IMG/VR virus record: IMGVR_UViG_3300032331_000244
Span: 1 to 55,933 of that record
Strand: one strand, 5' to 3'
Length of the DNA stretch: 55,933 nt
From: a virus
Shown: in pieces, positions 5,354 through 40,971 of the stretch
How positions within the stretch are numbered: the first letter of the stretch is position 1
Layout: each line of letters opens with the position of its first letter
The notes under the pieces: model-generated
Told to the model about the DNA's origin: nothing
Databases searched by the model: none
What the model saw: only the letters and a program-made list of their open reading frames with translations
Translations under genes and position numbers: made by a program

Positions 5354-5542
5354 ATGCAAAAGAAAGAAGTAAGAGATCGTATGTCTGAAATAATGGTCTT
5401 GATCGACAAGTCAATTGAATTGACTGATGATAGGAATGAAATGCTAATGTTAGCCTGTTGTATGCTACAGCGTACAAATGAAATTTTTAACAGCACATTA
5501 GGTGTTGAAGGTAGAAAACAAATGTTTAAGGATTATGTATGA
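5354..5542 (+). CDS. Small helical protein of unknown function
   Basis: A 62-residue, helical, Met- and Glu-rich protein starting 1 nt after the upstream stop. It overlaps the MazG-like gene by 4 nt (ATGA-type junction), so it is almost certainly translationally coupled. It has no signal peptide, Cys pair motif or known catalytic signature. Its place between an early unknown and a nucleotide pyrophosphohydrolase is the only hint. The uninterrupted frame and tight coupling support it being real. Confidence 0.6.
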   Translation: MQKKEVRDRMSEIMVLIDKSIELTDDRNEMLMLACCMLQRTNEIFNSTLGVEGRKQMFKDYV

Positions 5543-5985
5543 AGATTGATTTAAATAAATACCAAGAGTTTGTCGCGGCAGTTACTAGTGAGACTAGTAC
5601 TAACTTGACTGCATTCATGGATACATGCGATAGGATTGATGCTAACTACGAACTAGATGCATCAGACAATCAAATGAAGTATGGCCCTGATATCAATGTG
5701 CCACTGTTAATCACTGCATGTTTCGGTTTAGCCGCAGAAAGTGGTGAGTTTATTGAAGTGCCCAAGAAGATACTTTTTCAAGGAAAAGCACTTACCGATG
5801 ATGCTGTTTATCATATGAAACGAGAATTAGGCGATGTTATGTGGTATTGGATTAATGCTTGTCGTGCATTGAACCTAGACCCTAACGAAGTGATTGCCGA
5901 GAATATTCGCAAGCTAGAATCACGCTATCCCGGTGGACAGTTTGATGCACACTACAGCGAGAATCGCAAAGACGGCGACTTGTAA
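5539..5985 (+). CDS. mazG: MazG-like nucleotide pyrophosphohydrolase
   Basis: A 148-residue all-alpha NTP pyrophosphatase of the MazG/dUTPase-like superfamily. The metal-binding pairs are visible: ExxE at residues 67-70 (AAESGEFIE context) and ExxD at 96-99 (KRELGDVMWYW), followed by the typical 'NLDPNEVIAENIRKLESRYP' helix and loop. Such enzymes hydrolyse (d)NTPs to NMP and PPi. In phages they are thought to adjust nucleotide pools or, more debatably, the host alarmone level. It overlaps the preceding gene by 4 nt and ends just upstream of the regulatory hairpin before gp13, so its early transcript may read into gp13. The family call is firm; the substrate is unknown. Confidence 0.88.
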   Translation: MKIDLNKYQEFVAAVTSETSTNLTAFMDTCDRIDANYELDASDNQMKYGPDINVPLLITACFGLAAESGEFIEVPKKILFQGKALTDDAVYHMKRELGDVMWYWINACRALNLDPNEVIAENIRKLESRYPGGQFDAHYSENRKDGDL

Positions 5986-14918: not shown

Positions 14919-15548
14919 ATGCGAAGCCTCAAACAATACATCATGGAAAGTGTACATACTTACAACTACACTATCAAAATTGCCGGCACCATTGACAAGA
15001 ATTTTTTAGATATGTTTAAGTACAATCTAAACAAGTTTGACCCGGTGGAAATCAGTGAACCAAAAAGTACCCCAATACAGAAATCACCATATGGTTTCCC
15101 TAATTTAGAGAATGAAAGTGTAACATTGATTAAAGCTGAATTTAGATATCCAGCTACAGAACCAATGATACAACAGATTGCTCAATTGTGCGGTTACAAT
15201 GTTAATATGGTTCGCATGGTATCTACTGACTATGACGATAGCGTTGATAGTGAGATGGCTGGATATGAGAACGAAATGAGTAATAGCCCATTGCTTGACC
15301 AAGAAAAAATGGGTGAGCAACCAGATGCTAAAGCAGCAAGCAAAGCATATGGGGATTCATATCTACAATCAATCAAAGAACAAACCAAAGACAGTATGAT
15401 TGATATTCCTTACGCAGGAAAAGAAACACCGGATTCGTTTGACCCGTTCAAGCCATATTTAGATGATAAGAAGTTGGGCGATAAGAGTCCGATGAGTACT
15501 ATAAAGATGCCACCAAAGCCAAAGACTGGCGCAGCATATAACCGTTAA
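14919..15548 (+). CDS. Virion protein with a capsid-targeting-like N-terminus
   Basis: A 209-residue protein starting MRSLKQYIMES. This lines up position by position with the T4 internal-protein targeting peptide (MKTYQEFIAEA type), including the I-x-E just before the cut made by the gp21 prohead protease. The body has a conserved-looking region (about 14-75, 'YTIKIAGTIDKNFLDMFKYNLNKFDPVEISEPKSTP') and a 'TLIKAEFRYPATEPMIQQIAQLCGYNVNMVRMV' segment, followed by a disordered Ser/Lys/Pro-rich tail. Packaging into the head and cleavage after residue 10 are inferred from this motif only. It lies between the small terminase and the 889-residue internal protein candidate and probably shares a transcript with the latter, which starts 10 nt after its stop. 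Confidence 0.55.
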   Translation: MRSLKQYIMESVHTYNYTIKIAGTIDKNFLDMFKYNLNKFDPVEISEPKSTPIQKSPYGFPNLENESVTLIKAEFRYPATEPMIQQIAQLCGYNVNMVRMVSTDYDDSVDSEMAGYENEMSNSPLLDQEKMGEQPDAKAASKAYGDSYLQSIKEQTKDSMIDIPYAGKETPDSFDPFKPYLDDKKLGDKSPMSTIKMPPKPKTGAAYNR

Positions 15549-15558
15549 GGAAAAGAAA

Positions 15559-18228
15559 ATGGATATTAGAGATATATTAAAATCATTCGACCAATTAACT
15601 GAAGGCGAAAAAACTGTTTCTGATAAAGGTACAGTTCATAAAGCAGGCCCAGGTGGTTACGGAAATAAACATGGATCAGAAGATGTAAAAGATCAGTATG
15701 GTCAACGCATTGGCAAAGCAAGTCTAGCCAAGATGGGAAAAGATGATGCTCCTGCTGCTGTTAAACGTGGCAAAGGTCGTCCCCCAAAGAATGCAGACTC
15801 ATCAGGTGAAGTTAAAAAGTATGATAGTTCAGAATTGAGCAAAGCAATGGGTATGGGTAAAGCACCTAAAGCAACTGGCAAGCCAAGTGTTAAGCATAGC
15901 TTGAAAGAATATTTTGAACAACTGGATTATGCATTGAATGAAGCAGGGTTAGCAGTACAACCAATGCCTGCTACACCGCAACAAAAGCAACAACAAGCAG
16001 TAGCAACAAAGCCATCTTTTATGATTAAAGACCCGGCTAATCCTAATATGCCAGCTATCACTACACAAGACCCAGCAGTAGTTCAAGCAGCTAAGAATGG
16101 TACAATGTCAATGCAAAAGCCAGGCGCTGCTCCAACTGGTCAACCAGCTCCGGGTGCTGCACCCGCTGCAGGGGCAGGATCACAAGTTGCACCAATGAAA
16201 GAAACAGGCGATAATTGGATCAAAGATGCTACAAAAAATAAAGGTGCATTCACTGCTAAAGCAAAATCACATGATATGACTCCTGCTCAGTTTAGAGCAA
16301 AGGTGTTAGCACATAAAGAAGATTATCCTGCTAAGACAGAAAAGCAAGCACAACTTGCTAAGACATTAAGCAAGATGCACGAAGCTGATGCACCACAACA
16401 CTTTGCTCAATCAAGTCCACTAAGCACAGCTAACCGTGATGTATTAGAAAGCAAGAAGGGTGTTAATCCTTTTGCTAAGAAAGATGACAAGACAGCAAAG
16501 AAAGATGACAAGGCTGAAAAGATTGGTAAGAAAGTTACTAAAGATATAGAAAAGGTAGAAGAAGCTGCTAAACCAGACTTCTTAGACATGGACAAAGACG
16601 GTGACAAGAAAGAGCCAATGAAGAAAGCCGTTAAAGATAAAAAGAAAGTGAAAGAAGGTATGGAACATCATTTACAAGCAGCGAGACTTGAAGGTAAGAG
16701 TCATGCACTAAGAAAAATGCCATATAATTGCACACACGATGATATGGAAGAAGCACGTTGCTATCATGACGGATTTAAAGAAGGGCTAGATGAATGCTAT
16801 GGTCAAATGCCTATACTAGGTCGTACAGCAGTTGATGAAAATCCAGTAACTAATAAAATGGCTAGCTATGGTGCTGATGACATGGGTATGGACGAAGGCA
16901 ATGCTTTCACTGCTGGTCTTGCTAAAACACCACATGGTAGTAAATTTAAAGTAGGTGGAAATACATTTACTGACAGAACACGCTATGATTCAAACTTAGA
17001 TGAATTTGCTTTTGAATCATTAGACAAGCAATTGAATTCATTGCTTGAAAGCGAAGAAAAAGTATCAGAAGGCATGACTGTTTCAATCAGTAAAGGTCAA
17101 CAAGGATCTCCTGATTCAGTAAGTGTATCAGCACAAGACGGTGAAGCAGATCAGTTACTATCTATCATCAAATCAGCAGGCATGGGATTGTTTGGCGGTG
17201 ATGAACAAAATGGTTATGGCGCACCACAAGGCTCAACACAAGCTCCTGGTGGCATTGAAGTAGTTGATGATCATGATGGTATGATGGCATTGATGAAGAA
17301 GTTATCTGGTGGTGAGATGCAAAGTGGTGGCGACTACGCAGATGAAGAAGGTTACGGAGAAGAAGGTCATTCACACGAAGGTGAAGAGCCTTGCAATGAA
17401 TGCGGAATGATGGAATGTGGATGTGAGCAACCAGCTGACCAGAGTCATGACGAACAGGGACAACCAGTTATGGGCGAACAAGAATCAGAAGATCAAATGG
17501 CTTACGAAGTAGCTGAAACAAATGCTCCAGATTCCGGTGCTGATAATACTAATGCTGATGTTGCAGGTAATGCAGCAGCTAATAGTGCATTAGCAACAGC
17601 GGACGCAGGTGAAGATGAAGAAGAAGGCGAAGTATATTCAAAACCAGTATCTGAAGATGGCGATGATGAAGCTGAAGCTGAGACAGAAGTAGATGATGCT
17701 GAAAACGTAGCAGAAGGTAATGCAAATGACTCTTGCAAAAAATGTGATTGCAGTCCTTGCAAGTGTGAAACAGTGGCAGAATCATTTTCTAATCTTTACA
17801 AGAAATTAGCATTGTTATCAGAAGAATCAACTAGTGAGAAAGATGACAAAGCAGAAAAAGCCGCCAAGAAAGTCGCTAAAGATATTGAATATGACGAGGG
17901 TCATAAAGGCAAAGATGATGACAAGGCAGAAGAAGCTGGCAAAAAAGTAAAAAAAGACATTGAGTATGATGACAAGAAAGACAAGAAAAAAATAGATGAA
18001 TGGGCTAATGAAGCCGGTAAAAACGGTACAGACGCATCATTTGAAGCCGATATTGATTTTATGACTAAAGTTATCAGTGGTGGATTGAATAAACAAAAAT
18101 CTACCGGTCAAACAACTATCCCAGTTGTTGCGGGTCAAAAATCTCGCATGGGAGTTGATGGTTTAGGTAGTCCAATGAAAGAGTCTACAGATTTGTTAAA
18201 AGACTATTTAAAATTAAGCGGGCTATAA
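15559..18228 (+). CDS. Large disordered, highly charged head-internal/core candidate with metal-binding motifs
   Basis: An 889-residue, low-complexity Lys/Glu/Asp/Ala-rich protein. The start MDIRDILKSFDQLTEG ends in an L-x-E (13-15) followed by Gly, like a prohead-protease site. More such sites occur inside, including LNE 126-128 and VAE 717-719 and 739-741. Other features are a calcium-loop-like D343-x-D345-x-D347-G-D349 with E352, a Cys cluster C612, C615, C620, C622, and a second one C726, C729, C731, C734, C736. There are also three copies of a 'DDKAEKxxKKVxKDIE' repeat (from about residues 316, 762 and 787). This composition suits a scaffold/core or injected internal protein processed in the prohead. 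No enzyme domain was recognised. A strong terminator follows. Confidence 0.55.
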   Translation: MDIRDILKSFDQLTEGEKTVSDKGTVHKAGPGGYGNKHGSEDVKDQYGQRIGKASLAKMGKDDAPAAVKRGKGRPPKNADSSGEVKKYDSSELSKAMGMGKAPKATGKPSVKHSLKEYFEQLDYALNEAGLAVQPMPATPQQKQQQAVATKPSFMIKDPANPNMPAITTQDPAVVQAAKNGTMSMQKPGAAPTGQPAPGAAPAAGAGSQVAPMKETGDNWIKDATKNKGAFTAKAKSHDMTPAQFRAKVLAHKEDYPAKTEKQAQLAKTLSKMHEADAPQHFAQSSPLSTANRDVLESKKGVNPFAKKDDKTAKKDDKAEKIGKKVTKDIEKVEEAAKPDFLDMDKDGDKKEPMKKAVKDKKKVKEGMEHHLQAARLEGKSHALRKMPYNCTHDDMEEARCYHDGFKEGLDECYGQMPILGRTAVDENPVTNKMASYGADDMGMDEGNAFTAGLAKTPHGSKFKVGGNTFTDRTRYDSNLDEFAFESLDKQLNSLLESEEKVSEGMTVSISKGQQGSPDSVSVSAQDGEADQLLSIIKSAGMGLFGGDEQNGYGAPQGSTQAPGGIEVVDDHDGMMALMKKLSGGEMQSGGDYADEEGYGEEGHSHEGEEPCNECGMMECGCEQPADQSHDEQGQPVMGEQESEDQMAYEVAETNAPDSGADNTNADVAGNAAANSALATADAGEDEEEGEVYSKPVSEDGDDEAEAETEVDDAENVAEGNANDSCKKCDCSPCKCETVAESFSNLYKKLALLSEESTSEKDDKAEKAAKKVAKDIEYDEGHKGKDDDKAEEAGKKVKKDIEYDDKKDKKKIDEWANEAGKNGTDASFEADIDFMTKVISGGLNKQKSTGQTTIPVVAGQKSRMGVDGLGSPMKESTDLLKDYLKLSGL

Positions 18229-18325: not shown

Positions 18326-21300
18326 ATGTCTCAACAAAATATAGATTTTGGAACATTCCCAGATGATCCAGCAGCAGATGCCATACGAACAGCTTTTAAC
18401 AAAGTACAGAATAACTTTGACCAACTATTTGGTGCGAACGCAAACGCAACTGTAACATCTATTAACAGAACTCCGGGTGCTGGTATAACTGTTAATTATC
18501 CTACGGGTAACGTTGTTGTTTCTGCAAATATTGCATGTGTACAAGTTTCTACTAGTTCTTTAAGTATTGGTCGTGGTAGTAATGGTAGTAGCAGTGCAGT
18601 AATTACTAGTTCTACACAAACATTAATAGTTGATATAGATCCTGATCATGTATATTCTAATACTTTTGCAGACATTAATAACGGTTTAGCTAATTTTAAT
18701 GGTACACTTACAGTAGCTTCAAATGCACAACCAAACGTAACTAGTTTAGGTAATTTGGTACAACTAAATGTAGTTGGTAATGCAAGTTTCACTGGTTCTA
18801 ATGTTTATGTAAGTAATATAGGAAATCTTAAAATAATGGGAGGTTCAGCAGGTAACACTATTGTTACTGACGGACTAGGAAATCTTACTTGGGCAGCAGG
18901 CGGAGGTGGTAGCGGTGGTGCAGGTGGATTAGATACTCAAGTACAGTTTAATAATAATTACGCTTTATATGGTAGTAACAGCTTTTTATGGGATAACTTA
19001 GCTAATGTACTTACTGTAAGCCCGGGCAACATTGTTACAGATAATATAAATGCTAATTACTTCTTTGGTACATTAGCTAACGGTGATAGTAATATATTTG
19101 TAGATATTGATAGCAACATTAGTTTCACTGCTAATAATGTTACTACCATGATTATCACTAAAAATGGTTCTAATATTGCTGGATATGCTAATGTAACTGG
19201 TAATGCTAACGTTGGTAATATAGGTGCGACTCAAGCAATTATTGATACTAGTGCCAACATACCTATAATTCAACAAGGTAATAGTAATGTAACTATTACA
19301 AGTAATTCAAATGTTACTACATATATTACTGGTAATTCAACTGCTAGATTTACTATACATGATAGTGGAATAGTAGCTAACGGAACTGCAAATATTAGTG
19401 GCGCAGTTACAGCGGGCGGTAATATATCAACATACGGCGGTAATGGAACAGTACAAGCAAATAATCATACTGTAACAGGTGCAGCTACAGGTAATGCTAA
19501 TGTTTCTACTGTTACAGGTAATTTAGGTATTCGTGCAATTGCAAGTACTTACACAGATAACTCAGCTGCCGCAAGTGCAACAATAGCTAATTCTGCAATA
19601 CATGCTATTGCACAACCAACACTAGCGGCAGCAAATACTTCAGTAACCTTTACTAATGCATCAACATTATATATTGCAAATAGTCCGGCAGCAGGTACTA
19701 ACTCAACTATTACTAATCCATATTCATTGTATATTGCAAATGGTAGCACTTACTTTGGTGGTGCTAATAATTTCATTTTAGGTAATTTAACAGTACAAGG
19801 TAATGCAACATATTATAACATAGAATCATTCAACGTTGAGGATCCTATTATTTCGTTAGGCGGCGGACCAAACGGCAATGCATTGGTATCTAATGACGGC
19901 AAAGATAGAGGAACTGCATTACAATATTATACAACAGCACCAGTGACTGCGTTTATGGGTTGGGACAACAGTAACGGAGAGTTTGCGTTTGGTAGTAACG
20001 TGGTTCTTGTAAGTGAAGTAGTGTCGTATAATAGTTTAGGTAATGTTCGTGGGTCAGCGTGGATTGGTAATGTAGAGGGGGTAACTGCTAACTTCAGTGG
20101 TAATGTAACATCATTAAATGCTAATTTAGGTAACACTGCAAGTGCTAACTATTTTGTTGGAAGATTTTATGGTACTGCAAATGCAGCTATCATAGCTAAT
20201 ACAGTAGTTGATAATGCTCAACCAAACATCACGAGTGTAGGTACACTAACTAGTTTAGTTGTAACAGGCAACACTACATCAAATAATTTCATTGGTAGGT
20301 TAGCTAATGGTAATAGTAATATCAGCTTAATTGCAGACGGTAATATTAATTTTAATCCTATAGGTAACGCTAACTTACTAGTAGTGACTGGTACTGGAAT
20401 AAATGTTGCAGGTACTGGTAACTTCACTGGCAACCTGTCAGCAGCAGCACATTACGGTCCTTTAGCAAACGGTAATAGTAATGTTCAAATAGCAAGTGCA
20501 AATGGCGATATAACACTAACTGCGGTTGGCAACACAACTATGACAGTTACTGGCACTGGTGCTAATGTAAGTGGAACAGCAAACGTAACTGGTAATGCAA
20601 ATGTAGGTAACTTAGGAACTGATACTGCTGTCATCACTACAGGTAACATAACTACTATCAACAGTGGATTAATGCAAAACGGTAATAGTAATGTTGCTAT
20701 TACAGCTAACGCTAACGTTGCAATTGCAGTAACAGGTGCAAACAGATTAGTTGTAACATCAACTGGTGCAAACATATCAGGAACAGCAAATGTATCCGGT
20801 AATGCTAACACCGGTAACTTGGGTACAACAACACTAGTCGCTACTACTGGTAACATTACTACTATCAACAGTGGATTGATGCAAAATGGTAACAGTAACG
20901 TTACTATTACTGCTAATGCTAATATCTCTCACTTTGTTACTGGTAATGCGACTAGTCAATTAACCGTAACTGCTACTGGTGCTAATATCCCCGGATATGC
21001 TAATATAGTTGGTAATGCTAACACTGGTAACTTGGGTACAACTACACTAGTCGCTACTACTGGTAATATAACTACTATCAATAGCGGTTTAATGCAAAGT
21101 GGTAACAGTAACATTAACCTTACTGCAAATGCAAATATCGCTATTGCAGTTACTGGTGCAAACAGATTGGTTGTCACTTCAACTGGTGCAAACATATCCG
21201 GAACTGCTAACGTTTCTGGTAATGCTAATGTTGGTAATTTGGGAGCAGCACAAGTATTAGCAACTGCTAATATTACCGCACCACAATTAATATCTAATGT

Positions 21301-24300
21301 TGCAATAGGTACTGCCCCGTTAAGCGTACAAAGTACCACCCGTGTTGCTAATTTAAGTGTCGATTACGCTAACGTAAGTGATTTTGGTGTTGTAACTACT
21401 CAAACAACTGGAACTTTCTATCCAATATTTGTTAATGCAAATACAACCGGTAATCTTGCACAAGGAAGTAATGCAAACTTATCATTCAATGCAGCAACTG
21501 GTAATTTGTCTACTACATTGTTAAATGTAACAAGCAATGCTAACGTAGGTAACTTAGGAACTGCTACTGCTATTATTACTACAGGTAATATTACTACTAT
21601 CAACAGCGAGTTATTACAAAGCGGTAATAGTAATGTGTCAATTACTGCTAATGCAAATGTTGCAATTGCAGTAACAGGTGCAAACAGATTAGTTATCACT
21701 TCAACTGGTGCAAACATATCAGGTACTGCTAATGTTTCTGGTAATGCAAACGTAGGTAATATAGGTGCTACCAATGGTGTATTAACTAATTTAACAGTTT
21801 CTGGCAATATTGATAGCACAGGTAATATAAATGCTAATTATATTGTAGGGAATGATGCTTACCAAGGTGGACTAAATATAGTAGGAACGATAGGGGCTGC
21901 GGGTAATGGTCAACCAGGTGGATCAATTGGCATACAAGGTGGTAATGGCAATTCAACAGGGACAACCCTCGGCGGAGTAGTTACTATTTCTGGTGGGTCC
22001 GCTTCTGCAAATGGATCTGGGGGCTATGTAGGCTTAGTAGGTGGCTCGGGCGGAGGCACCGGAGCGTTAATTCAAGCAAACGGCGGATCCTCTATTTATG
22101 CTTTGAACGGTGGAGGTGACTTGTTATTAAGAGGCGGTGCAGGAAGAGGCACTAACACAAACGGCGGTATCATTACTATTACAGGTGGAATAGGAACTGG
22201 TACGGGAACTCCAGGCAATGTTGCAATTCGAGTATCTACTCCAATTGCATCTGGTTCTGCAAATCAAACAGTAGCTAATGTTGCAGTGTTTACTGGTACG
22301 GGTGCAAATATTACTGGTACTGCAAACATAAGTGGCAATGCTAACACAGGTAATTTAGGTACAACAACACTAGTCGCTACTACTATCAATAGTGGATTGA
22401 TGCAAAATGGTAATAGTAATATTACTATTACTGCTAATGCAAATATCTCTCACTTTGTTACTGGTAATGCAACTGCTCAATTTGTAGTTACTGCTACTGG
22501 TGCTAATATTGCAGGTACTGCTAACGTAGTTGGTAATGCTAACGTAGGTAATTTAGGTGCTACACAGGGTATATTCACTACAAGTGCTAACATCCCATTA
22601 ATCAATAGTGGCAATAGTAACATTACATTAACTGCTAACGGAAATGTTTCAACATTCATCACTGGTAATGCAACTGCTCAATTTGTAGTTACTGCTACTG
22701 GTGCTAATATACCGGGTACTGCCAATGTAGTTGGTAATGCTAACGTCGGTAACTTAGGCACTGCTACAGCAATCATCACTACAGGTAATATAACTACTAT
22801 CAATAGCGGGTTATTACAAAATGGTAATAGTAATGTGTCAATTACTGCTAATGCAAATGTTGCAATTGCAGTAACAGGTGCAAACAGATTAGTTTTAACA
22901 TCAACTGGTGCAAATATCACTGGTACTGCTAACGTTTCTGGTAATGCTAACGTAGGTAATATAGGTGCTACCAATGGTGTATTAACTAATTTAACAGTTT
23001 CTGGCAATATCGATAGCACAGGTAATATAAATGCTAATACTATTACAGGCAATAATTCAGCCGGTGGACTGGCTATTACAGGAAAAATAGGAATTGCAGG
23101 TGATTTTGAAATAGGCGGAAATATTGAAGTTTTAGGTGGTAATGGTAACGCAACTGGAAATACAATTGGAGGACCAGTACGAATTGCAGGTGGTTTTGCT
23201 TCTGCTAATGGCATTGGAGGATATGCGGAACTAATAGGAGGTACAAGCGGTGGTCTTGGTGCATCTGTCAGAGCAAGCGGCGGCGGTGGAAATTCCGGTG
23301 GAGGTGAAGGCGGTAACTTAGTAATGAATGCAGGAACAGGAGTTGGAACTGATAAAGCAGGTGGAACTACTGTTATTGCAGGTGGTAAAGGAAGTGGTGC
23401 AGGTGCGCCCGGCAATATAGCTATTCAAGTTTCTACTGCACTAACTACAGGCACAACTACTCAAACTTTATCTAATATTGCAGTGTTTACTAGCACAGGC
23501 GCAAACATAACTGGAACTGCAAACATAAGTGGCAATGCTAACACTGGTAATTTAGGTACAACTACATTAGTTGCTACCACCGGTAATATAACTACTATCA
23601 ATAGCGGGTTATTACAAAATGGTAACAGTAATGTATCAATTACTGCCAATGCTAATATCGCTATTGCAGTAACAGGTGCAAACAGATTAGTTATCACTTC
23701 AACTGGTGCAAACATATCAGGTACTGCTAATGTTTCTGGTAATGCTAATACAGGTAACATTGGTGCAACTCAGGGTATATTTACAACAAGTGCTAACATC
23801 CCATTAATCAATAGTGGCAATAGTAACATTACATTAACTGCTAACGGAAATGTTTCTACATTCATTACAGGTAATGCAACTGCTCAATTAGTTGTTACCG
23901 CTACTGGTGCCAACATACCGGGTACTGCTAATGTAGTTGGTAATGCTAATGTAGGTAATTTAGGTACAAACACTGCTATCATAACAACTGGCAATATAAC
24001 TACTATCAATAGTGGGTTAATGCAAAATGGCAATAGTAACATAAGTATCACAGCTAATGCAAATATTTCACACTTTGTTACTGGAAATACAACAAGTCAA
24101 TTGACTGTGACATCGACTGGTGCTAACATACCGGGAACTGCTAACGTAGTAGGTAATGCTAACGTCGGTAACTTAGGTACGGCAACTGCTGTTATTACTA
24201 CTGGTAATATAACTACAATCAATAGCGGGTTATTACAAAATGGTAATAGTAATGTGTCAATTATTGCAAATGCAAATGTTGCAATTGCAGTAACAGGTGC

Positions 24301-27300
24301 AAATAGACTAGTTGTTACTTCGACTGGTGCAAATATATCCGGATATGCTAATATATCCGGTAATGTTAACGCTGGAAATATTGAAGTTAGTGGAAATTTT
24401 GCTGTTGGTGTTGCTGCAACCGGATACGGAACAAACTTTGCGGTAAATACAGCAGGCGGAAATACTCCAACTATTGGTGATTTCAACAACATTGCCAACA
24501 ATACAGGACTGTACTTTAGAACTTCTGGAATAGCTAATATTCAAATTACAGGAGGTGGTTCTTTTGGATTAATTGATAACACCGGCAGTAATACATTCTT
24601 CACTGCAAATGCTGCTAGAGTTACAATACCTTCAGGCACTGCTGCAACTAGCACCACATCAGGTGCATTACAAGTAACCGGTGGCGCTGGTATAAGCGGT
24701 AACTTATATGCAGGTGGAAATATAACAACTACTGGTGCTAATGGTACCGTCACAGCAAATAATCACACTGCCACTGGTGCAGCAACTGGTAATGCTAACG
24801 TATCGACTGTAACAGGTAACTTAGGTATTCGTGCAATATCAAGTACATACACAGATAACTCAGCAGCAGCAAGTGCAACTATAGCTAATTCTGCAATACA
24901 CGCTATTGCACAGCCAACATTAGCAGCAGCAAATACAGCCGCTACATATACTAATGCAGCAACATTCTTTATTGCTGGTGCACCTTTACGTGGTACAAAT
25001 GCTACAATAACTAATCCATATTCGTTATACGTAGGGAATGGAACAAGTTTCTTTAGCGGTTCTATAAAAACGTATGGTTTGCAATCTACTGGACTTGGAA
25101 CTCCTGTTCTAGCTACTCTTGCACCTTCCACTACAGGTGGATCGTTGGCTACAAATATTTACTATTTCCGAATAGTTGCAACTGATGGAATAGGCGGGTT
25201 CTCATTACCAACCGGTGAACAAAGCGCATCGGTAACCGGCCCAACAGGTTCAGTTAGTGTTAATATTCAACCACTAGCTGGTGCAGTTTCATATCAAATA
25301 TGGTTCTCAACAACGTCAGGTGTACAAACAACGTATTTCACGATGACTGATTATGCAACCCAGGGAGGGGGACAGTGGTCATATAATTTCACCACAACTA
25401 CTGGTGCAACAGTAGGTACTTTACCCGATATCAATACAACTGGCAAAATAACTACACCTATTTTAACAGCTAGTACCGGTGTATTGTCCAACACATCCGT
25501 CCCGGCGTTAAATATAACTCAACAATGGGTAAACACATCTACCACATTCACTGCTATATTAGCAAATATAACTGACTCTACATCTGCTGCAAGTTCATTA
25601 TTAATGGATTTACAAGTTGGCGGTACAAGTAAATTTAAAGTTGATAAAACTGGTTCTGCTACATTTGGTAATGTATTGACAGGTAATGGTTCAGGATTAA
25701 GTGCAATAGCAGGTGCAAATGTAACTGGTACTGTACCTAATGCAACCAGCGCAACAAATGCGTCAGCATTATTACAGAATACATCTACTGCTACTACAGT
25801 ATATCCAACATTTACTACTTCAAGTGCAAATGGCAATGCATCTGCGGTAATTAATACAAGTATTAGTGCTAATTTATCAAATGGAGCAATAATAGCTACT
25901 ACATTTGTTGGTAATATCTCAGGTAATCTTACTGGTGGTATATTAGCTAATGGAAATAGTAATGTAAGTATTCCTGCTGCTAATGGAAACGTTAACATAT
26001 CAGCAATAGGTGTTGCTAATGTATTGATTGTCACTGGTACTGGAGCTAATATAACTGGCACAGCAAATGTTAGTGGTAATGCTAACACTGGTAACTTAGG
26101 CACAACAACATTAGTGGCTACTACTGGTAACATCACTACTATCAATAGTGGATTGATGCAAAATGGTAATAGTAATATTACTATAACAGCCAATGCAAAT
26201 ATTTCACACTTTGTTACTGGAAATACAACAAGTCAATTGACTGTGACAGCGACTGGAGCTAACATACCGGGTACAGCGAACGTTGTTGGTAATGCTAATG
26301 TAGGTAATTTAGGTACAGCACAAGTATTAGCAAGTGCTAATGTAACTAGTCCTCAGTTCATATCTAACATAGCAACTGCAACTGGTGCTCCGTTTAGTGT
26401 ACAAAGTACAAATCGTGTAGCAAATCTAAATGTTGCGTATGCAAATGTTGCAGATTTTGGTGTAGTAACAACACAAAATACTGGTACTTATTATCCAGTA
26501 TTTGTAAATGCAAATACTACTGGAAATTATGCTCACGCAAGTAATACATTGATTAGTGCTAACTTAGCGAATGGTGCTATTACCGCAACAACATTTGTTG
26601 GAGCACTATCAGGTGCAGCAACAAGTGCAACTACAGCAGGTAGTGCAACTACAGCAGGTACTGTAACAACAAATGCTCAACCAAATATCACAAGTACAGG
26701 TACACTAACAAGTGTTACAACTAGTGGCAACTTAGCTTTCATTTCAACTGGACAACGTATATTTGGTGAATTTAGTACTGCTACCCACACAAGTAGAACC
26801 TTATTTCAAACTATCACAGCCAATAGTAGTACTATTGTTGGCGTAATTCCACAAGGAACAGGAACAGTAGGACAGTTAAATCTCTATAACAACTCTGACG
26901 CCGGGAATGCTAGCATACTATCAACACTTACAGTAGCTACTGAAACATCAATTCGTTCTGGCAATGTTGGCACTGGTACATATTTGCCAATGACCTTCTA
27001 CACAAGTGGTAGCGAACGTATGCGTATTGACACTGGTGGTAATGTAGGTATTGGTGGCACTATACCCGCAAGCAATCCAAAATTGAGTATGTATGGTGGC
27101 ATTCGTTTCTTGTCGCAAGAAGCAGCAGCGAATACTTATACAGGTATTGGAAGTATTGTAGCAGACACGGTAAGTATCAGCACTTCGGGTAGCGAACGTA
27201 TGCGTGTTGATACCGGCGGCAACGTGGGGATTGGTACTTCGTCGCCAAGCTCCAAGCTAAATGTTAACAATGGGTTCTTGCAAATAGACATTGCAGGTGT

Positions 27301-27856
27301 TCAAGCCGTTAGATTGGGCTCATCTGATTCTATTGTTAGCGGTGCGGATAACAATGCCGTAATTCAAGCTGGAGCCAGCAAAGCGTTACTCATGCTGGCT
27401 GGCGCAACAGAACGGATGCGTATTGACTCTAACGGCAACGTGGGGATTGGCAATACTGCACCAACTAATACACTAAGTGTCACTGGTACTGCAAACGTAT
27501 CAGGTAACATCACTGGTGCTAATGTAATAGCAACGTCATACCACATTCGTTCAGTTGGTACTAGTATATCAGCGGCAGGCACAGTTCAAGCAAATGCTAC
27601 TGCGATTACTAAAGAAATAAATGTTGTATCTACAGTAGCAACTGGTGCAGGGGTAGTACTACCAACAGCAGTAGCAGGTATGGTAATTACTATCACTAAC
27701 ACAAGCGCAAACAGTTTATTAGTATATCCAGCAGCGAGTGGTATAATCAATTCATTAGCAGCTAACGCAGCATTTACTCACCCTACATTGGCTACACTAC
27801 AATATATTGCACCTACAACAACACAATGGTATACAGTTGGTGCTACATACGCATAA
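18326..27856 (+). CDS. Giant repetitive tail fibre protein (3176 aa)
   Basis: One uninterrupted frame. The N-terminus has 'NIDFGTFPDDPAADAIRTAF' and 'KVQNNFDQLFG', the pattern of phage fibres that count sub-objects along a shaft. The shaft is dozens of Asn/Gly/Thr/Val repeats built on 'GNSNVSITANANVAIAVTGA', 'TGANISGTANVSGNANVGNLG' and 'ITTGNITTINSGLLQ', as expected of a trimeric beta-helix. Two Gly-rich inserts (residues about 1185-1308 and 1585-1698) resemble polyglycine-helix adhesin loops. Two ~105-residue modules are shared with the second giant fibre. Near the end, three 'SERMRIDTGGNVGIG' motifs of the kind found beside fibre-tip domains precede a compact C-terminal domain (from about 3070) with 'ITKEINVVSTVATGAGVVLPTAVAG'. 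No S74 chaperone domain was seen. Role: long host-binding fibre or bristle. Confidence 0.85.
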   Translation: MSQQNIDFGTFPDDPAADAIRTAFNKVQNNFDQLFGANANATVTSINRTPGAGITVNYPTGNVVVSANIACVQVSTSSLSIGRGSNGSSSAVITSSTQTLIVDIDPDHVYSNTFADINNGLANFNGTLTVASNAQPNVTSLGNLVQLNVVGNASFTGSNVYVSNIGNLKIMGGSAGNTIVTDGLGNLTWAAGGGGSGGAGGLDTQVQFNNNYALYGSNSFLWDNLANVLTVSPGNIVTDNINANYFFGTLANGDSNIFVDIDSNISFTANNVTTMIITKNGSNIAGYANVTGNANVGNIGATQAIIDTSANIPIIQQGNSNVTITSNSNVTTYITGNSTARFTIHDSGIVANGTANISGAVTAGGNISTYGGNGTVQANNHTVTGAATGNANVSTVTGNLGIRAIASTYTDNSAAASATIANSAIHAIAQPTLAAANTSVTFTNASTLYIANSPAAGTNSTITNPYSLYIANGSTYFGGANNFILGNLTVQGNATYYNIESFNVEDPIISLGGGPNGNALVSNDGKDRGTALQYYTTAPVTAFMGWDNSNGEFAFGSNVVLVSEVVSYNSLGNVRGSAWIGNVEGVTANFSGNVTSLNANLGNTASANYFVGRFYGTANAAIIANTVVDNAQPNITSVGTLTSLVVTGNTTSNNFIGRLANGNSNISLIADGNINFNPIGNANLLVVTGTGINVAGTGNFTGNLSAAAHYGPLANGNSNVQIASANGDITLTAVGNTTMTVTGTGANVSGTANVTGNANVGNLGTDTAVITTGNITTINSGLMQNGNSNVAITANANVAIAVTGANRLVVTSTGANISGTANVSGNANTGNLGTTTLVATTGNITTINSGLMQNGNSNVTITANANISHFVTGNATSQLTVTATGANIPGYANIVGNANTGNLGTTTLVATTGNITTINSGLMQSGNSNINLTANANIAIAVTGANRLVVTSTGANISGTANVSGNANVGNLGAAQVLATANITAPQLISNVAIGTAPLSVQSTTRVANLSVDYANVSDFGVVTTQTTGTFYPIFVNANTTGNLAQGSNANLSFNAATGNLSTTLLNVTSNANVGNLGTATAIITTGNITTINSELLQSGNSNVSITANANVAIAVTGANRLVITSTGANISGTANVSGNANVGNIGATNGVLTNLTVSGNIDSTGNINANYIVGNDAYQGGLNIVGTIGAAGNGQPGGSIGIQGGNGNSTGTTLGGVVTISGGSASANGSGGYVGLVGGSGGGTGALIQANGGSSIYALNGGGDLLLRGGAGRGTNTNGGIITITGGIGTGTGTPGNVAIRVSTPIASGSANQTVANVAVFTGTGANITGTANISGNANTGNLGTTTLVATTINSGLMQNGNSNITITANANISHFVTGNATAQFVVTATGANIAGTANVVGNANVGNLGATQGIFTTSANIPLINSGNSNITLTANGNVSTFITGNATAQFVVTATGANIPGTANVVGNANVGNLGTATAIITTGNITTINSGLLQNGNSNVSITANANVAIAVTGANRLVLTSTGANITGTANVSGNANVGNIGATNGVLTNLTVSGNIDSTGNINANTITGNNSAGGLAITGKIGIAGDFEIGGNIEVLGGNGNATGNTIGGPVRIAGGFASANGIGGYAELIGGTSGGLGASVRASGGGGNSGGGEGGNLVMNAGTGVGTDKAGGTTVIAGGKGSGAGAPGNIAIQVSTALTTGTTTQTLSNIAVFTSTGANITGTANISGNANTGNLGTTTLVATTGNITTINSGLLQNGNSNVSITANANIAIAVTGANRLVITSTGANISGTANVSGNANTGNIGATQGIFTTSANIPLINSGNSNITLTANGNVSTFITGNATAQLVVTATGANIPGTANVVGNANVGNLGTNTAIITTGNITTINSGLMQNGNSNISITANANISHFVTGNTTSQLTVTSTGANIPGTANVVGNANVGNLGTATAVITTGNITTINSGLLQNGNSNVSIIANANVAIAVTGANRLVVTSTGANISGYANISGNVNAGNIEVSGNFAVGVAATGYGTNFAVNTAGGNTPTIGDFNNIANNTGLYFRTSGIANIQITGGGSFGLIDNTGSNTFFTANAARVTIPSGTAATSTTSGALQVTGGAGISGNLYAGGNITTTGANGTVTANNHTATGAATGNANVSTVTGNLGIRAISSTYTDNSAAASATIANSAIHAIAQPTLAAANTAATYTNAATFFIAGAPLRGTNATITNPYSLYVGNGTSFFSGSIKTYGLQSTGLGTPVLATLAPSTTGGSLATNIYYFRIVATDGIGGFSLPTGEQSASVTGPTGSVSVNIQPLAGAVSYQIWFSTTSGVQTTYFTMTDYATQGGGQWSYNFTTTTGATVGTLPDINTTGKITTPILTASTGVLSNTSVPALNITQQWVNTSTTFTAILANITDSTSAASSLLMDLQVGGTSKFKVDKTGSATFGNVLTGNGSGLSAIAGANVTGTVPNATSATNASALLQNTSTATTVYPTFTTSSANGNASAVINTSISANLSNGAIIATTFVGNISGNLTGGILANGNSNVSIPAANGNVNISAIGVANVLIVTGTGANITGTANVSGNANTGNLGTTTLVATTGNITTINSGLMQNGNSNITITANANISHFVTGNTTSQLTVTATGANIPGTANVVGNANVGNLGTAQVLASANVTSPQFISNIATATGAPFSVQSTNRVANLNVAYANVADFGVVTTQNTGTYYPVFVNANTTGNYAHASNTLISANLANGAITATTFVGALSGAATSATTAGSATTAGTVTTNAQPNITSTGTLTSVTTSGNLAFISTGQRIFGEFSTATHTSRTLFQTITANSSTIVGVIPQGTGTVGQLNLYNNSDAGNASILSTLTVATETSIRSGNVGTGTYLPMTFYTSGSERMRIDTGGNVGIGGTIPASNPKLSMYGGIRFLSQEAAANTYTGIGSIVADTVSISTSGSERMRVDTGGNVGIGTSSPSSKLNVNNGFLQIDIAGVQAVRLGSSDSIVSGADNNAVIQAGASKALLMLAGATERMRIDSNGNVGIGNTAPTNTLSVTGTANVSGNITGANVIATSYHIRSVGTSISAAGTVQANATAITKEINVVSTVATGAGVVLPTAVAGMVITITNTSANSLLVYPAASGIINSLAANAAFTHPTLATLQYIAPTTTQWYTVGATYA
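19450..19790 (+). repeat. ~105-aa fibre module, first copy in fibre 1
   Basis: It encodes 'NNHTVTGAATGNANVSTVTG' followed by NLGIRAI, a TYTDNSAAAS stretch, an AIHAIAQPT stretch, NASTLYIANSP and 'ITNPYSLYIANG'. A second copy lies at about 24745-25060, and seven more are in fibre 2 (about 34615-39150). The protein sequence is conserved while codons differ. Confidence 0.8.
21590..23990 (+). repeat. Two in-frame tandem copies of a ~1.2-kb block in fibre 1
   Basis: Bases from about 21590 and from about 22790 match closely at an offset of exactly 1200 bp (400 codons), for example 21723-21838 with 22923-23038. Each block holds shaft repeats followed by a Gly-rich insert. After the inserts the offset becomes 1197 bp, one codon lost. 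The shaft part is nearly identical and the Gly-rich parts have diverged. A separate exact 71-bp direct repeat is at 22580-22650 and 23786-23856. Confidence 0.85.
24745..25060 (+). repeat. ~105-aa fibre module, second copy in fibre 1
   Basis: Same module as at 19450, with NNHTATGAATGN, NLGIRAIS, an AIHAIAQPT stretch, NAATFFIAGAP and 'ITNPYSLYVGNG'. It precedes a distinct ~110-residue domain ('YYFRIVATDGIGGFSLPTGE') that has no other copy here. Confidence 0.8.
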
Positions 27857-31022: not shown

Positions 31023-34000
31023 ATGAGTACAATCAACACAAACCCAATTAATGTAAATTATCCAGTCCCTGGCGTTAACAACAACAGTCAAGGATTTAGA
31101 GATAATTTTGCATCTATTGTAACCAACCTTAATACGGCTGGTGCAGAACTTACTGACTTGCAAAATAAAGTAGTAGTTAAACAAGCATTAATAGGAACTA
31201 CTGTTAATAATGACATGGCTAATACACTTATTAGCAATGCAAGTACTAGAAGTTTTAGGGCTACTACGTATAATTTAGGCGGGGCATTATCAGGAACAGT
31301 ATTAGTTAATACATCATTAGCCGATGTTCACTATGGAACCGTAGCAGAAAACACTCAATTCAATTTTGGTAGTTGGGCACCTGCAGGAACACAAGCTAAC
31401 GTACAATTGAACTTAACAGTATCAAATTCACTGGCAACTATTGCTTTTTCGGGCAACGTTGTAGTAGATAATGCTAATAATAACGGAACAAGCACACTTG
31501 AGAATTTTGTTAATATAGATGGATTAGTTACAGTTACTGTACCTTACGGTGTAACACAACTTAATTACTTAATAACTACAACAGACTGCGGTTCTACACT
31601 ATATGTAAGTCCTATCAATAGACCTAGAGTAGCTACAGCCGTTCAACAACGAACACCTACCCCAACCGGAATGCAAGGAGATGTGGCCGGTGATGTAGCA
31701 GTAGATAATACTTATTTGTATATCTGCTCTGATTCTTTTAATTCGGGTGGAGGAAATACCGTAGTTAAAACTGCAACCGCTACTGTTTCTAGTGGTAATT
31801 TAATAAACGTTGGTTCAACCACTAATCTAGTTGTATCGTCTCCTATCGTATTCACTGGAACAACATTTGGTGGAATAGTTGCAAATACTACTTATTATAT
31901 CAAATCTCTTGATGGCGGCGGAACTAGTATTACAGTATCAGAAATAGGATATGAAGGCGTCCCTGGTTCAGCATTTGCAGTATCTACTGCATCTGGTACA
32001 ATGACTGCTACAAGTTATAACGGAGATATAATTTGGAGACGAATGGGAGTTGATTCTCCTGCTGGCAATATTACTATCGACGGTAATTTAACAGTAACAT
32101 ATGCTGCTAATATTGGTACAACATTAAATGTAGTAGGAAATTCTAATGTAGGTAATTTAGGCACCGGTGGATTAATAGTTGCGACTGGTAATGTAACTGG
32201 TGGAAATTTAGTTACCGGTGGAAGATTAACTGTTACAGGCAATGCTAACACAGGTAACTTAGGTACTACACGAATATTAGCAAGCGGTAATATAACTGCT
32301 ACTCAATTAATATCTAACGTAGCAACTGGAACTGCACCATTGGTAGTAACTAGTACAACTTTAGTACCTAACTTATACGTGGCACGTGCTAATGTAGCAT
32401 CTTATGCAAATATAACTGCATTATCATCAAGCGGAACATATTACCCAGTGTTTGTTAATAGTAGTGGTGCTAGCGGAAATTATGCATTAGGCACAGACAA
32501 TGGATTAGTATTTAATGCAACAACTAATACAGTAACTACTAGTTTTTACACAGGTACACTAACAACAGCAGCACAACCAAATATTACCAGTGTCGGTACA
32601 CTAACATCATTGGGTGTAAATGGTACGGTAACCGCGGTAGCATTTACTGCGAACACCGGTGTATTTACTGGTAACGGTAATGGACTACGTTCAATTGTTG
32701 GTGCTAATGTTACTGGTAATGTAGGTAATGCATTGTATGCATATTCAGTTGCAGTAGCTAACGTAGTTGGCATAGGTAACATTGCTACTGTAAATTTAAC
32801 CGGTAGCACTAGTACTGTATTATACGGTAACGGTGTGTTTGCAACACCAACTACCACAACAAGTATCTCTAATGGTAACAGTAATGTAAGTATTCCAGCA
32901 GCAAATGGAAACGTCAATATATCAGCAGTTGGTAATGCAAACATATTAGTTGTCACTGGAACAGGTGTTAATGTAGCAGGTACATTGAATACAGGTAGTG
33001 GTAACATTACCGGTGGCAACTTAATTGGACCTTTAGCAAATGGTAATAGTAATGTTAATATACCTGCAGCTAACGGAAACGTTAATATTAGTGCTGTGGG
33101 TAATGCTAACATATTAGTTGTAACTGGTACAGGTGCTAACATCACAGGTACTGCTAATATTTCTGGAAATGCTAACGTAGGTAATTTAGGTACAGCACAA
33201 GTATTAGCAACTGCTAATATTACCGCGCCGCAATTAATATCTAATGTTGCAATAGGTACTGCACCATTAGTAGTTACAAGTACAACACAAGTAGCTAATC
33301 TAGCAGTAGCAACAGCAGGAAATGTAGCTGCTACATTGACTTCCACTGGAACTGCATATTTACCATTCATATCAGCTACTACTACAGGTAATTATCCTTT
33401 ACAATCAAATGCTAATTTCTCTGCTAATTTAGCAAATGGATATATTACTGCTACTGGATTTGTTGGAAATGGTGCTGCATTGACTGATGTTAGTGCGACA
33501 GTATCAAATGGAACAAGCAACGTAAGTATTCCATCAATTAATGGTAATGTAAACATAGTTTCTGCTGGTAACACTACATTAGCAGTTACTGGCACAGGTG
33601 CAAATATAACTGGTACAGGTAACTTTAGTGGTAATGTTAATGCTGCTAATTTAATTGGAACTGGTTTATATACTAACGGTACTACAGGAAACGCACAGAT
33701 ATTCTATGATAGTTCAAACAATTCAGTAGGTGCGTTTCAAGGAAATATTGCTAACTACATTCAAACTTACCTATGGAATTCAAACGTCAACGCAAATGCG
33801 TCAGCATCTTTTGCTGTGTATGACACAGTTGGTCCTACTGGAAGTAATTTCGTAGATATTGGTATATTAAGTAACACATGGAGCAATGCTTCTTGGACAA
33901 TAAGTGGTGCATCAGACGCTTACATGTATTCAGGTAATAGTAATTTAGCTATTGGTACTGCTAGCAGTTCTAATATTATATTCTTTACTGGTGGAACATT

Positions 34001-37000
34001 AGCTGCCAATGAAAGAATGCGTATTACTACTACTGGTGCTAACATCACAGGTACAGGTAATTTTTCTGGTAATTTATCTGCTGCTAATTTAATTGGACCA
34101 CATGCAAATGGAAATAGTAATGTTAATATACCGGCAGCAAATGGAAATGTTAATATTAGTGCTGTGGGTAATGCCAACATATTAGTAATCACAGGCACTG
34201 GTGTTAATGTAGCCGGCACTGGTAACTTCACTGGTAATTTGTCAGCAGCAGCACATTATGGCCCATTAGCAAATGGTAATAGTAACGTCAACATACCAGC
34301 AGCAAATGGTAATGTAAACATATCAGCAGTTGGTAACGCTAACATATTAGTAGTTACAGGCACAGGTGTTAATGTAGCTGGTACATTGAACACAGGTAGC
34401 GGAAATATCAATACTACCGGTAACGTTAGTGGTGCATTCTTCATAGGTAACGGTAGTCAATTGACAGGGTTAACAATCAGTGCCGGTACTGCTATTACAA
34501 ATGGTAATAGTAATGTGTCTGTAGTTGCTAACGCAAACGTGAACTTTAGTATAACTGGTACACCAAACGTAGTGTCAGTTACCTCTGGTGGTATTATAAC
34601 TAGTGCTACTAATGCAACTATTACAGCTAATAATCATACTGCATCTGGTGCTGCATCAGGTAATGCTAACGTTTCAACAGTAACTGGTAATTTAGGTATC
34701 AGAGCATTAGCAGCTACATATACAGATAGTGTTGTAGCAGCATCAACTACTGTAGCAAATGCAGCAATACATGCGATTGATAGACCAACATTAACTGCAA
34801 CTAATGCGTCAGTTACTTTTACAAATGCAGCAACTTTCTATATAGCAAATAGTCCTGCAAATTCAGGAACTACATTAATTACTAATCCATATTCGTTATT
34901 TGTAGCAGGCGGTAATAGTTTCTTTGGTGGTAACATAATTGGTGTATTAGCTAATGGTAATAGTAACGTTAACATACCGGCCGCAAATGGTAACGTAAAC
35001 ATATCATCAGCTGGTAATGCTAACGTACTAACAGTTACAGGTACTGGGGCAAACATTACTGGTACTGCTAACGTTTCTGGTTTAATTACAGGTGGTAATA
35101 TATCAACTACTTCTACAGATGGTACTGTTACAGCGAATAATCACACTATTACCGGTGCAGCAAATGGTAATAGTAATGTTTCAACAATCACTGGTAACTT
35201 AGGACTTAGATCACTAGTAACAACATATAATGAAGGTAATGCAACAGCGAGTGAAGTAATAGCAAATGCGGCTATACATGCAATCGCTACACCAACTGTT
35301 ACTGCAACTAATACCAACGTAACAGCAACTAATATGGCAACTTTCTATATTCAAAGTGCGCCAGTGCAAAGTACAAACATGATTATAACTAATCCGTATG
35401 CATTATATGTTGCAGCGGGTAATAGCTTCTTTGGTGGCAACATAATTGGTGTAGTAGCTAACGGTACAAGTAATATTACTATGGCCACTAGTGGAAATGT
35501 CTCAACATTTGTAGGTGGCAATACAACTGCTCAATTAGTTATCACTTCAATTGGTGCAAACATTCCGGGTACAGCTACTATTGGAACTGCTAATATTACT
35601 ACGGTCAACAGTAGTGTAATTCAAAATGGTAACAGTAACGTATCAATAGTTGCTAATGCAAACGTTAACTTTGGTGTCACTGGTACTGCCAACGTTGCAT
35701 CTATAACAGCAGCAGGTATCATAACTACCGCAGCAAATGCCGCAGTAACATCTAATGGTTTTACTGCTTCGGGCGTAGCAACTGGTAATAGTAACGTATC
35801 AACAATTACAGGTAACTTAGGTATTCGTGCATTATTCTCTACTTACACAGATAACTCAGCAATATCTGGTGCGACAATTGCCAACGCAGCAATACATGCA
35901 TTTGCTGCACCTAACTTAGCTGCTGCTAATACATTAGTTACATTTACAAATGCAGCAACAATGTATATTGGTGGTGCTCCTGTAGCTAACACAAATGCTA
36001 CTATTACTAACCCATATGCATTGTTTGTAGCAGGTGGAAATAGCTTCTTTGGTGGTAGTGTTATCGGAACGATAGCGAATGGTACTAGTAACCTACGTAT
36101 GACACTCAATGGAAACGTTACTATAAGTGCAGCCGGTGCTAGTAACGTATTCACAGTTACTGGAACTGGTGCAAACGTCACTGGTACAGCTAACATTTCT
36201 GGTAACGCTAATGTTGGTAACATTGGTGCAGTTAATGCAATCATAACAACCGCAGCAAACATCCCATTGATAAGAAGCGGTACAAGTAATATAACACTTG
36301 CGTCAGGTGGTAACGTATCTACCTTTATTGGTGGTAATGCAACTGCTCAACTGGTTGTTACTTCAATTGGTGCAAATATTCCAGGTACAGCTACTATAGG
36401 AACTGCTAATATCACTACTGTTAACAGTAGCGTAATACAAAATGGTAACAGTAACGTATCTATTACTGCTAACGCAAATATTAACTTTAACGTTACTAGT
36501 ACTAACATTGCGTCAATTACAACAGCAGGTATATTAACCAATTCTGCTAACGCAGCAATTAGTGCTAACAACTTTACTGCAACTGGTGCAGCAACAGGTA
36601 ACTTAAATGTCGGTACAGTTACTGGTAATTTGGGTATTAGGTCAATATCAGCAGTTTATTCAGATCCAACCGCTACTGGTGCAGTAGCATATATAGCAGC
36701 ACATGCTATCGCTACTCCAACATATTCAACAACAAGTTCAGTTACTGCAGGTAATGCTGCAAGTTTCTATATCCAAGCAGCACCTGCAAACGCCGGTGCA
36801 TTGCAACTATCAACTGCTAATTCTTATGCATTGTTTGTTGCAGCAGGTAACAGTTTCTTTGGTGGTAATATTATCGGTGGTCCTTACGCTAATGGTAATA
36901 GTAATGTCAACATTCCAGCAGCAAATGGAAACGTTAACATATCGGCAGTGGGTATCGCTAACGTATTAGTTGTCACCGGTACTGGTGCAAATATAACAGG

Positions 37001-40461: not shown

Positions 40462-40971
40462 ATGAAAACAGATATGTATGGGCAAATTATTCTCACAGAA
40501 AATGACCTCTGTGATTTATACATGCGTGATCCAATACGAACTATCAAAGGATGTTTCGTAGATAAACAAATAAAGTTAGATGATATTTTTCTATCCAATG
40601 AAAATCTACCTATACTAGTAGAGTATGTTGATAGTAAATTATCATTGGAAGAATTTGACAGTAACAATCAATCACAGTGGCAAATGCCTGTAGAATATCA
40701 AGAAATGGATATTGCTAAATGGGTATTGGACCAATGTAAAAACGAAGAAGAACTGCAACGGGCAGGGGATGAACTATTAAAGTTCCATGACAGGAACATG
40801 TTCCCATTACTACAGTATTTAAAGTATCTTGTTGATACAATGCGTAGAAATAATATTGTATGGGGAGTTGGTCGAGGAAGTAGCGTGGCAAGCTATGTAT
40901 TGTATTTGATAGGAATTCACAGAATAAATAGTTTGTACTATCAATTATCGATAGACGAATTTTTAAAATAA
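40462..40971 (+). CDS. DNA polymerase III alpha (DnaE)-like fragment protein
   Basis: A 169-residue protein whose C-terminal part (about 131-168) contains VGRGSSVAS (136-144), then YVLYLIGIHRINSLYYQL and DEFLK. This matches the GPGRGSAAGSLVAYLLGI...F(E)RFL block at the active-site palm region of bacterial DnaE. The rest of DnaE (PHP, fingers, beta-binding) is absent, so it cannot be a working polymerase. Proteins with this block occur as short conserved genes in T4-like aquatic phages. Roles such as a decoy for the host replisome or a nucleotide/DNA-binding accessory factor are speculation. It has a sigma-70 promoter placed for a leaderless transcript. Confidence 0.6.
   Translation: MKTDMYGQIILTENDLCDLYMRDPIRTIKGCFVDKQIKLDDIFLSNENLPILVEYVDSKLSLEEFDSNNQSQWQMPVEYQEMDIAKWVLDQCKNEEELQRAGDELLKFHDRNMFPLLQYLKYLVDTMRRNNIVWGVGRGSSVASYVLYLIGIHRINSLYYQLSIDEFLK

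Follow-up and report, generated by a model that had tools for sequence, protein, structure and literature searches.

The question raised by this locus is whether several proteins that differ in their bodies share a short N-terminal leader, and whether this leader could be a portable address tag for entry into the prohead. In phage T4 a tag of ten residues is enough to bring a foreign protein into the phage head, and the natural cargo known there amounts to a handful of proteins. The DNA analysed here (the window, 55,933 nucleotides) is an IMG/VR record of 55.9 kb and represents a fragment of a T4-like myovirus; proteins of the sheath, tube, neck and head completion could be identified in it. 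Its closest isolates by sheath comparison, PA5oct, Atu_ph07 and SCTP-2 among them, are jumbo phages with an identity of about 45% or lower. The protein encoded at position 14,919 has 439 relatives in IMG/VR, including some in the near-complete records G004 (264 kb), G005 (230 kb) and G006 (349 kb), whose sequences were read in tiles. The phage group that carries the leaders is large, uncultured, aquatic, T4-like and abundant.

Four leader-bearing open reading frames had been predicted, and all of them start with ATG at the expected positions and translate into the predicted peptides; start codons were set by rule in all genes analysed. All window features given below with coordinates lie on the plus strand. 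The first leader, MRSLKQYIME (positions 14,919 to 14,948), with a predicted cut between Glu10 and Ser11, precedes the body of a 209-aa protein (14,949 to 15,548). An AlphaFold model of this protein was of low confidence (mean pLDDT 50.7) and placed a helix at residues 4-11, and its profile had no match in the PDB. The second leader, MDIRDILKSFDQLTE (15,559 to 15,603; predicted cut between Glu15 and Gly16), is carried by a charged 889-aa protein, and in the G006 homologue it reads MDFKSLLSQLDQLNEA, with different residues and the same pattern. The body of this protein (15,604 to 18,228) contains several internal h-x-E motifs, matches phrog_20603 and phrog_24078 (unknown function), and includes KRGKGRPPK, an AT-hook-like DNA-binding motif found by eye in the translation (15,763 to 15,789). 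The third leader, MSTELFRKYIDMLNE (50,358 to 50,402; predicted cut between Glu15 and Ser16; MDENVSELFRKYIDMINEN in the G004 homologue), precedes the body of a 147-aa protein (50,403 to 50,801). The fourth, MRFKQIIE (54,638 to 54,661; predicted cut between Glu8 and Thr9; MRFKQIVENS and MRFNQIVENT in homologues), precedes a body (54,662 to 55,933) that translation and body comparison assign to a modular protein truncated by the window end. The Glu at exactly residue 15, which had been claimed for two leaders, is found in the second and third, and no mutual BLAST match at E<1e-3 was detected between the bodies, which had been called unrelated. None of the four leader proteins could be assigned a function by Pfam or PHROG, and those encoded at 14,919, 15,559 and 54,638 had no match in the isolate-phage collection. 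In addition, two things absent from the original prediction were seen: internal joints with the same Glu rule, and a leader candidate, MTKRIINE/G (44,846 to 44,869), on a protein that matches phrog_13138, a PHROG called virion structural protein.

The proposed alignment of MRSLKQYIMES with the T4 leader MKTYQEFIAEA is right at I8 and E10. Thirty 14919-family proteins with 75-96% identity to the one in the window were compared: M1, S3, L4, I8, E10 and S11 were invariant, and residues 2, 7 and 9 varied. Mutational work in T4 assigned targeting chiefly to residues 4 and 7, and the processing function to residues 8 and 10, with the gp21 protease cutting after L/I-x-E (PMC9026906); the invariant I8 and E10 of the 14919 family are these processing positions. 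The T4 leaders in AF158101 are MKTYQEFIAEA (ipII and ipIII), MKTFKEFTSTTTPVSTITEA (ipI) and MAKINELLRES (gp24), so that both the short (Glu10) and the long (Glu15-19) leader forms have T4 counterparts, and the gp24 leader is closely like that of the 14919 protein. T4 IPI, IPII and IPIII have bodies of diverse kinds behind a 10-19 residue N-terminal leader that ends in I-x-E, next to a small residue, and T4 has a gp21-type protease (Mullaney and Black 1996, summarised in PMC9026906); the leader proteins analysed here share these traits, with the protease found in the near-complete relatives. Likewise, gp22, gp24, gp23 and Alt of T4 are gp21 substrates that are cut after the Glu of L/I-x-E; however, they belong to the core or shell or, in one case, are an enzyme, and do not form arrays of exchanged modules such as those proposed here. 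The present group differs from the T4 internal proteins in its many more carriers, in the dominance of the form MRAxEF[ILV]xE, and in bodies built of modules with internal h-x-E joints, a build that is not known for the T4 proteins.

A likeness of such short peptides could also arise by chance or from a general bias at gene starts, where a short helix with Lys or Arg and Glu may be common. We scanned for the pattern [LIVMF]xE[ASGN] with the Glu at residues 4-18. In the window, 5 of the 36 called genes had the motif, against 1.6 expected from shuffled N-termini (shuffle maximum 7), and this small excess accords with chance, as does the natural look of some matches that do not seem added, e.g., the MazG-like protein encoded at 5,539. 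The genome-wide scan that had been proposed to count the cargo set is only suggestive in the window alone, but in the relatives the excess was clear: the motif in the first 18 residues was about twice as frequent as in shuffles (29 vs 13.7 in G004, 35 vs 17.9 in G006 and 21 vs 10.6 in G005). When the non-redundant proteins of all viral loci (1,891) were scanned with a stricter pattern, 131 had it at residue 1 and 4-18 had it at twelve internal offsets, an about twelve-fold excess, and these 131 proteins fell into at least 41 body clusters. The requirement for Glu was specific, since replacement of this residue in the core pattern by D, Q, K, N, S, T, A or G reduced the matches from 98 proteins to 9-31. 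In the four phages without S77 (T7, lambda, N4 50 kb and S-CBP1) the strict pattern was found in 1 of 183 genes. As a positive check, the core pattern was applied to two 49-kb parts of T4, where it picked seven genes, five of which encode known head-core or internal proteins (ipII, ipIII, gp21, gp22 and gp24). The shifted-window and residue-swap controls, together with the conservation of I8 and E10, led us to reject chance or gene-start bias as highly improbable, although the assignment of any single protein is uncertain, because the leader pattern is short. The commonest form, MRAxEF[ILV]xE, is T4 MKTYQEFIAE minus one residue, and 48 sequences start with MRAxEF.

If the leaders are of the T4 type, a prohead protease should act on them. 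No match to Peptidase S77 was found in the 55.9-kb window fragment. It was found above cut-off in G004, G005 and G006, where the sequences retain the T4 segments LGExxHP and GVSSRG. The gene order in G004 (portal-like, 75-aa, 275-aa, S77, scaffold-like, major head protein) is like that of T4 20-67-68-21-22-23, the major head protein being identified by PHROG and the others, except S77, by position. Among 16 large records that bear the joint described below, S77 was present in six, and gp23 was present in the same six. The ten records without S77 are best read as fragments, because the same ten are without a gp23 match, and we therefore set their missing S77 aside as counter-evidence; a diverged protease in these ten is possible.

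The internal joints have the peptide QGVAE, which occurs three times in the window, where 0.4 matches are expected with one mismatch allowed. Two copies, at 53,634 to 53,648 (CAAGGTGTAGCGGAA) and at 53,952 to 53,966 (CAAGGTGTGGCGGAA), lie in a 619-aa modular protein (52,725 to 54,584; phrog_36119) whose own N-terminus is without an h-x-E leader; at the second of them, the left module is common to L241 and L270 and the right modules differ. The third copy (55,784 to 55,798; CAAGGTGTGGCGGAA) lies within the leader protein encoded at 54,638. One 826-aa leader protein of G004 has up to five QGVAE, and KGVAE-type variants (two) were counted separately in others. The DNA of the joint is near-constant, CAAGGTGTRGCGGAA followed usually by GGC. 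A search by peptide gave 15 QGVAE copies in the window and G004-G006. Ten of these were exactly CAAGGTGTGGCGGAA, against 0.6% identity expected from codon use, and 13 of the 15 differed from it at most at the third base of the Val codon; this codon statement is based on the four sequences read whole, because pattern scans favour exact DNA matches. In IMG/VR, 233 of 237 distinct copies among the matches listed were in the QGVAE reading frame and in one orientation. Joints in bacterial genomes were considered separately and rejected, as the 70 matches of an exact-pattern scan look like chance, their frames being mixed and the joint frame being present in 25 of 69.

Such a frozen joint might be only an uncut flexible linker at the sites of exchange, so that the leaders would be T4-type propeptides and the modules would stay joined. 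The freezing at synonymous sites fits this explanation, and a recombination joint alone accounts for the exact module boundaries and the frame lock. Furthermore, conservation of the joint by itself is not proof of a protease site, because the synonymous freezing makes part of it a DNA-level property. The variant joints argue against it: all 210 were in frame, with Glu at P1 in 205 of 210 and V, M, L or I at P3 in 209 of 210, whereas P2 took 11 different residues, that is, the aliphatic-x-Glu was kept and the middle position was free. The QGVAE joint has V at P3, where L or I is known from T4; the variant joints represent the L/I-x-E rule with V and M admitted as well. The joint Glu also aligned with the leader Glu in shared modules, and we consider an uncut linker unlikely. 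Because the joint obeys the same aliphatic-x-Glu rule as the leaders, it is most likely a further cut site. Joint proteins were richer in lysine than the others (9.5% vs 6.4%), in weak accord with DNA-associated head proteins.

Leaders and joints were linked in the same proteins. The leader pattern was present in 36 of 95 joint proteins and in 198 of 1,796 others (odds ratio 4.9, p=5e-11). The association was not significant when the Glu was changed to D (p 0.84) or to K (p 0.30), and shifted windows gave an odds ratio of 1.7-2.0. The other 59 of the 95 joint proteins did not score for the a-priori leader, and many of them bear a longer or slightly different one. In modules seen both behind a leader and behind QGVAE, the residue aligned to the joint Glu was Glu in 14 of 45, with 4.6 expected, as in the pair MKIREVINE/GWTQKYKKSINCSHP and QGVAE/GWSQKYKKSINCSHP or the pair MRINDIINE/EKTRLDPKCW and QGVAE/EKVRLDPACW. 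A natural control is provided by the module GLWANIHAKRDRIKNGSGE (GLWANIHAKR...), which G004 and L311 have behind the leader MRFSEIISEN and L202 has behind QGVAEES. The same module is without a leader in five small isolate phages, where it starts 3-10 residues past the annotated Met, and in S-CBP1 and P-SCSP1d its gene lies near the capsid gene. No match to S77 was found in these five phages in a search with T4, P-TIM68 and Atu_ph07 as positive controls, and G004, which has the leader on this module, encodes S77. The earlier view of the leader as a portable tag is thus supported by sequence, with at least 41 body clusters behind the strict leader and a module that occurs with or without it.

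The joint is also where homology between copies ended exactly, as if modules were exchanged there. Among the matches listed, the flanks of 219 copies were homologous on the left only in 81 pairs, on the right only in 68 and on both sides in 5; the scores of these pairs (149 of them one-sided) were well above the null maximum, and the median distance of the homology break from the joint was 0 residues on both sides. In four relatives of the 147-aa protein (L238, L332, L351 and L260), the C-terminus is directly continued by QGVAE and four different modules, whereas the window protein stops there. The 619-aa protein and its G004 relative differ by about 330 extra residues at the position of the window's second joint. 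The joint DNA could instead be an in-frame mobile mini-element that inserts into genes, for which the Rickettsia palindromic elements are the comparison case, and its frozen sequence and wide spread among viral contigs are as expected for such an element. Insertion should, however, leave homology on both sides, which was seen in 5 pairs as opposed to 149 one-sided pairs, and the shared frame and orientation of nearly all copies also speak against it. This explanation, already disfavoured, was rejected on the one-sided homology as extremely improbable. The joint more plausibly serves as a short homology for frame-safe exchange of modules, because its DNA is near-identical and always in frame. 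Homologous small basic modules, also present in cyanophages and pelagiphages, are the phage modules DUF6321, DUF5872 and DUF3008 (PHROGs 727, 3477 and 11180), with the DUF5872 and DUF3008 matches below the Pfam cut-offs. Small podophages, unlike the present group, encode such modules as small genes of their own that have no leader.

Alternatively, the modular proteins could be polyvalent proteins, which would be injected and processed through a protease domain within the same chain. For the packaged multi-domain proteins described by Iyer et al. 2017 (PMC5512222), delivery with the phage DNA is likewise proposed. The multi-domain layout and the likely delivery with DNA are common to both. However, the polyvalent proteins are processed by their own domains (an MPTase in the characterised cases), and the available part of PMC5512222 describes no shared joint. 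Pfam found no peptidase domain in seven modular proteins, a small sample, and the relatives have instead a trans-acting S77 protease and a leader; a polyvalent nature is in our opinion very unlikely. The ejection proteins of phiKZ and SPN3US, large packaged sets with propeptides that have several cut sites, resemble the predicted cargo of the present group. They differ in that phiKZ cuts at S/A-x-E with a diverged protease, unlike the h-x-E here, and that the available part of PMC9026906 describes neither a short leader common to them nor a joint with frozen DNA.

We consider it likely that the leaders are capsid-targeting propeptides of the T4 type on cargo proteins, often polyproteins, which would be cut after h-x-E, and that the joint DNA is a handle for swapping modules. 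Prohead entry and leader cleavage are proposed by analogy with T4 (PMC9026906). The leader (the first 8-19 residues) would form a small helix and bring the protein into the core of the prohead, where the S77 prohead protease, the gp21 homologue, would cut after the Glu of aliphatic-x-Glu. The mature body would stay in the head and presumably enter the host with the DNA. The cargo would often be a string of small modules linked by QGVAE or near variants, with QGVAE most likely as a further cut site that separates them. We more tentatively suggest that QGVAE may be under selection at two levels, namely for releasing the modules as a prohead-protease site and for in-frame swaps as a 15-18 bp homology. 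The T4-type leader is of a known kind, and the repeated h-x-E joint with frozen DNA is what sets this group apart. Among the literature matches listed, no phage paper naming QGVAE or GVAEG was found, nearly all of them dealing with alpha-synuclein or other topics, and a search of partial coverage gave nothing that unites polyprotein, prohead protease and domain shuffling.

The tag logic of T4 is thus seen here in a large uncultured group, with 439 IMG/VR relatives of one leader protein and dozens of cargo families. If the proposal is true, the leader and the joint form a plug-in system by which common aquatic phages build and re-assort polyproteins of injected cargo. Genomes of uncultured phages could then be screened with a sequence rule for packaged and probably injected proteins, which is relevant to early host takeover and to anti-defence proteins, and the frozen joint offers a concrete mechanism proposal for domain shuffling in phage proteins.

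Short modules, KKDACYYKVKSRYKVWPSAYASGAL and WSQKYKSSINCSHPKGFSQKAHCAGKKKH among them, recur across many of the proteins whose modules are separated by the predicted QGVAE-type cleavage joint (viral loci L202, L176, L264 and others). The ORF at 50798-51697 gave a weak cytidylyltransferase-like match, and a QGVAE or QGLAE joint was present in its nucleotidyltransferase-type relatives (in the large related record G006 and in locus L353). A head-gene-associated module is borne by the 39-kb genome of Limnohabitans phage DC33 (PQ492659.1, locus L435), which the record's taxonomy assigns to the Inoviridae; given this genome size and the module, that placement looks doubtful.

Two very large ORFs, at 18326-27856 (3,176 aa) and 31023-39548 (2,841 aa), consist of degenerate G-N-A-N-V-x-G-N repeats and have repeat families in common at the DNA level within the window; their products are probably fibre-like proteins. 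As a separate observation, the 169-aa ORF at 40462-40971, whose C-terminal end is WGVGRGSSVASYVLYLIGIHRINSLYYQLSIDEFLK, resembles by eye part of the palm of a DnaE-type DNA polymerase III occurring as a gene on its own.

The N-terminus of the protein at 5539-5985, which is MazG-like by eye, is MKIDLNKYQEFVAAVTSE; it resembles a T4 leader, yet it is probably the natural start of this protein, so that single pattern matches have to be taken with caution. In the related record G004, the 128-aa protein L096 (228075-228461), whose sequence includes MRAREFIAESSSGVVAYHGTNNKFSSFD, was read by eye as a small ADP-ribosyltransferase-like protein placed after a leader. A putative ADP-ribosyltransferase with a leader recalls T4 Alt.
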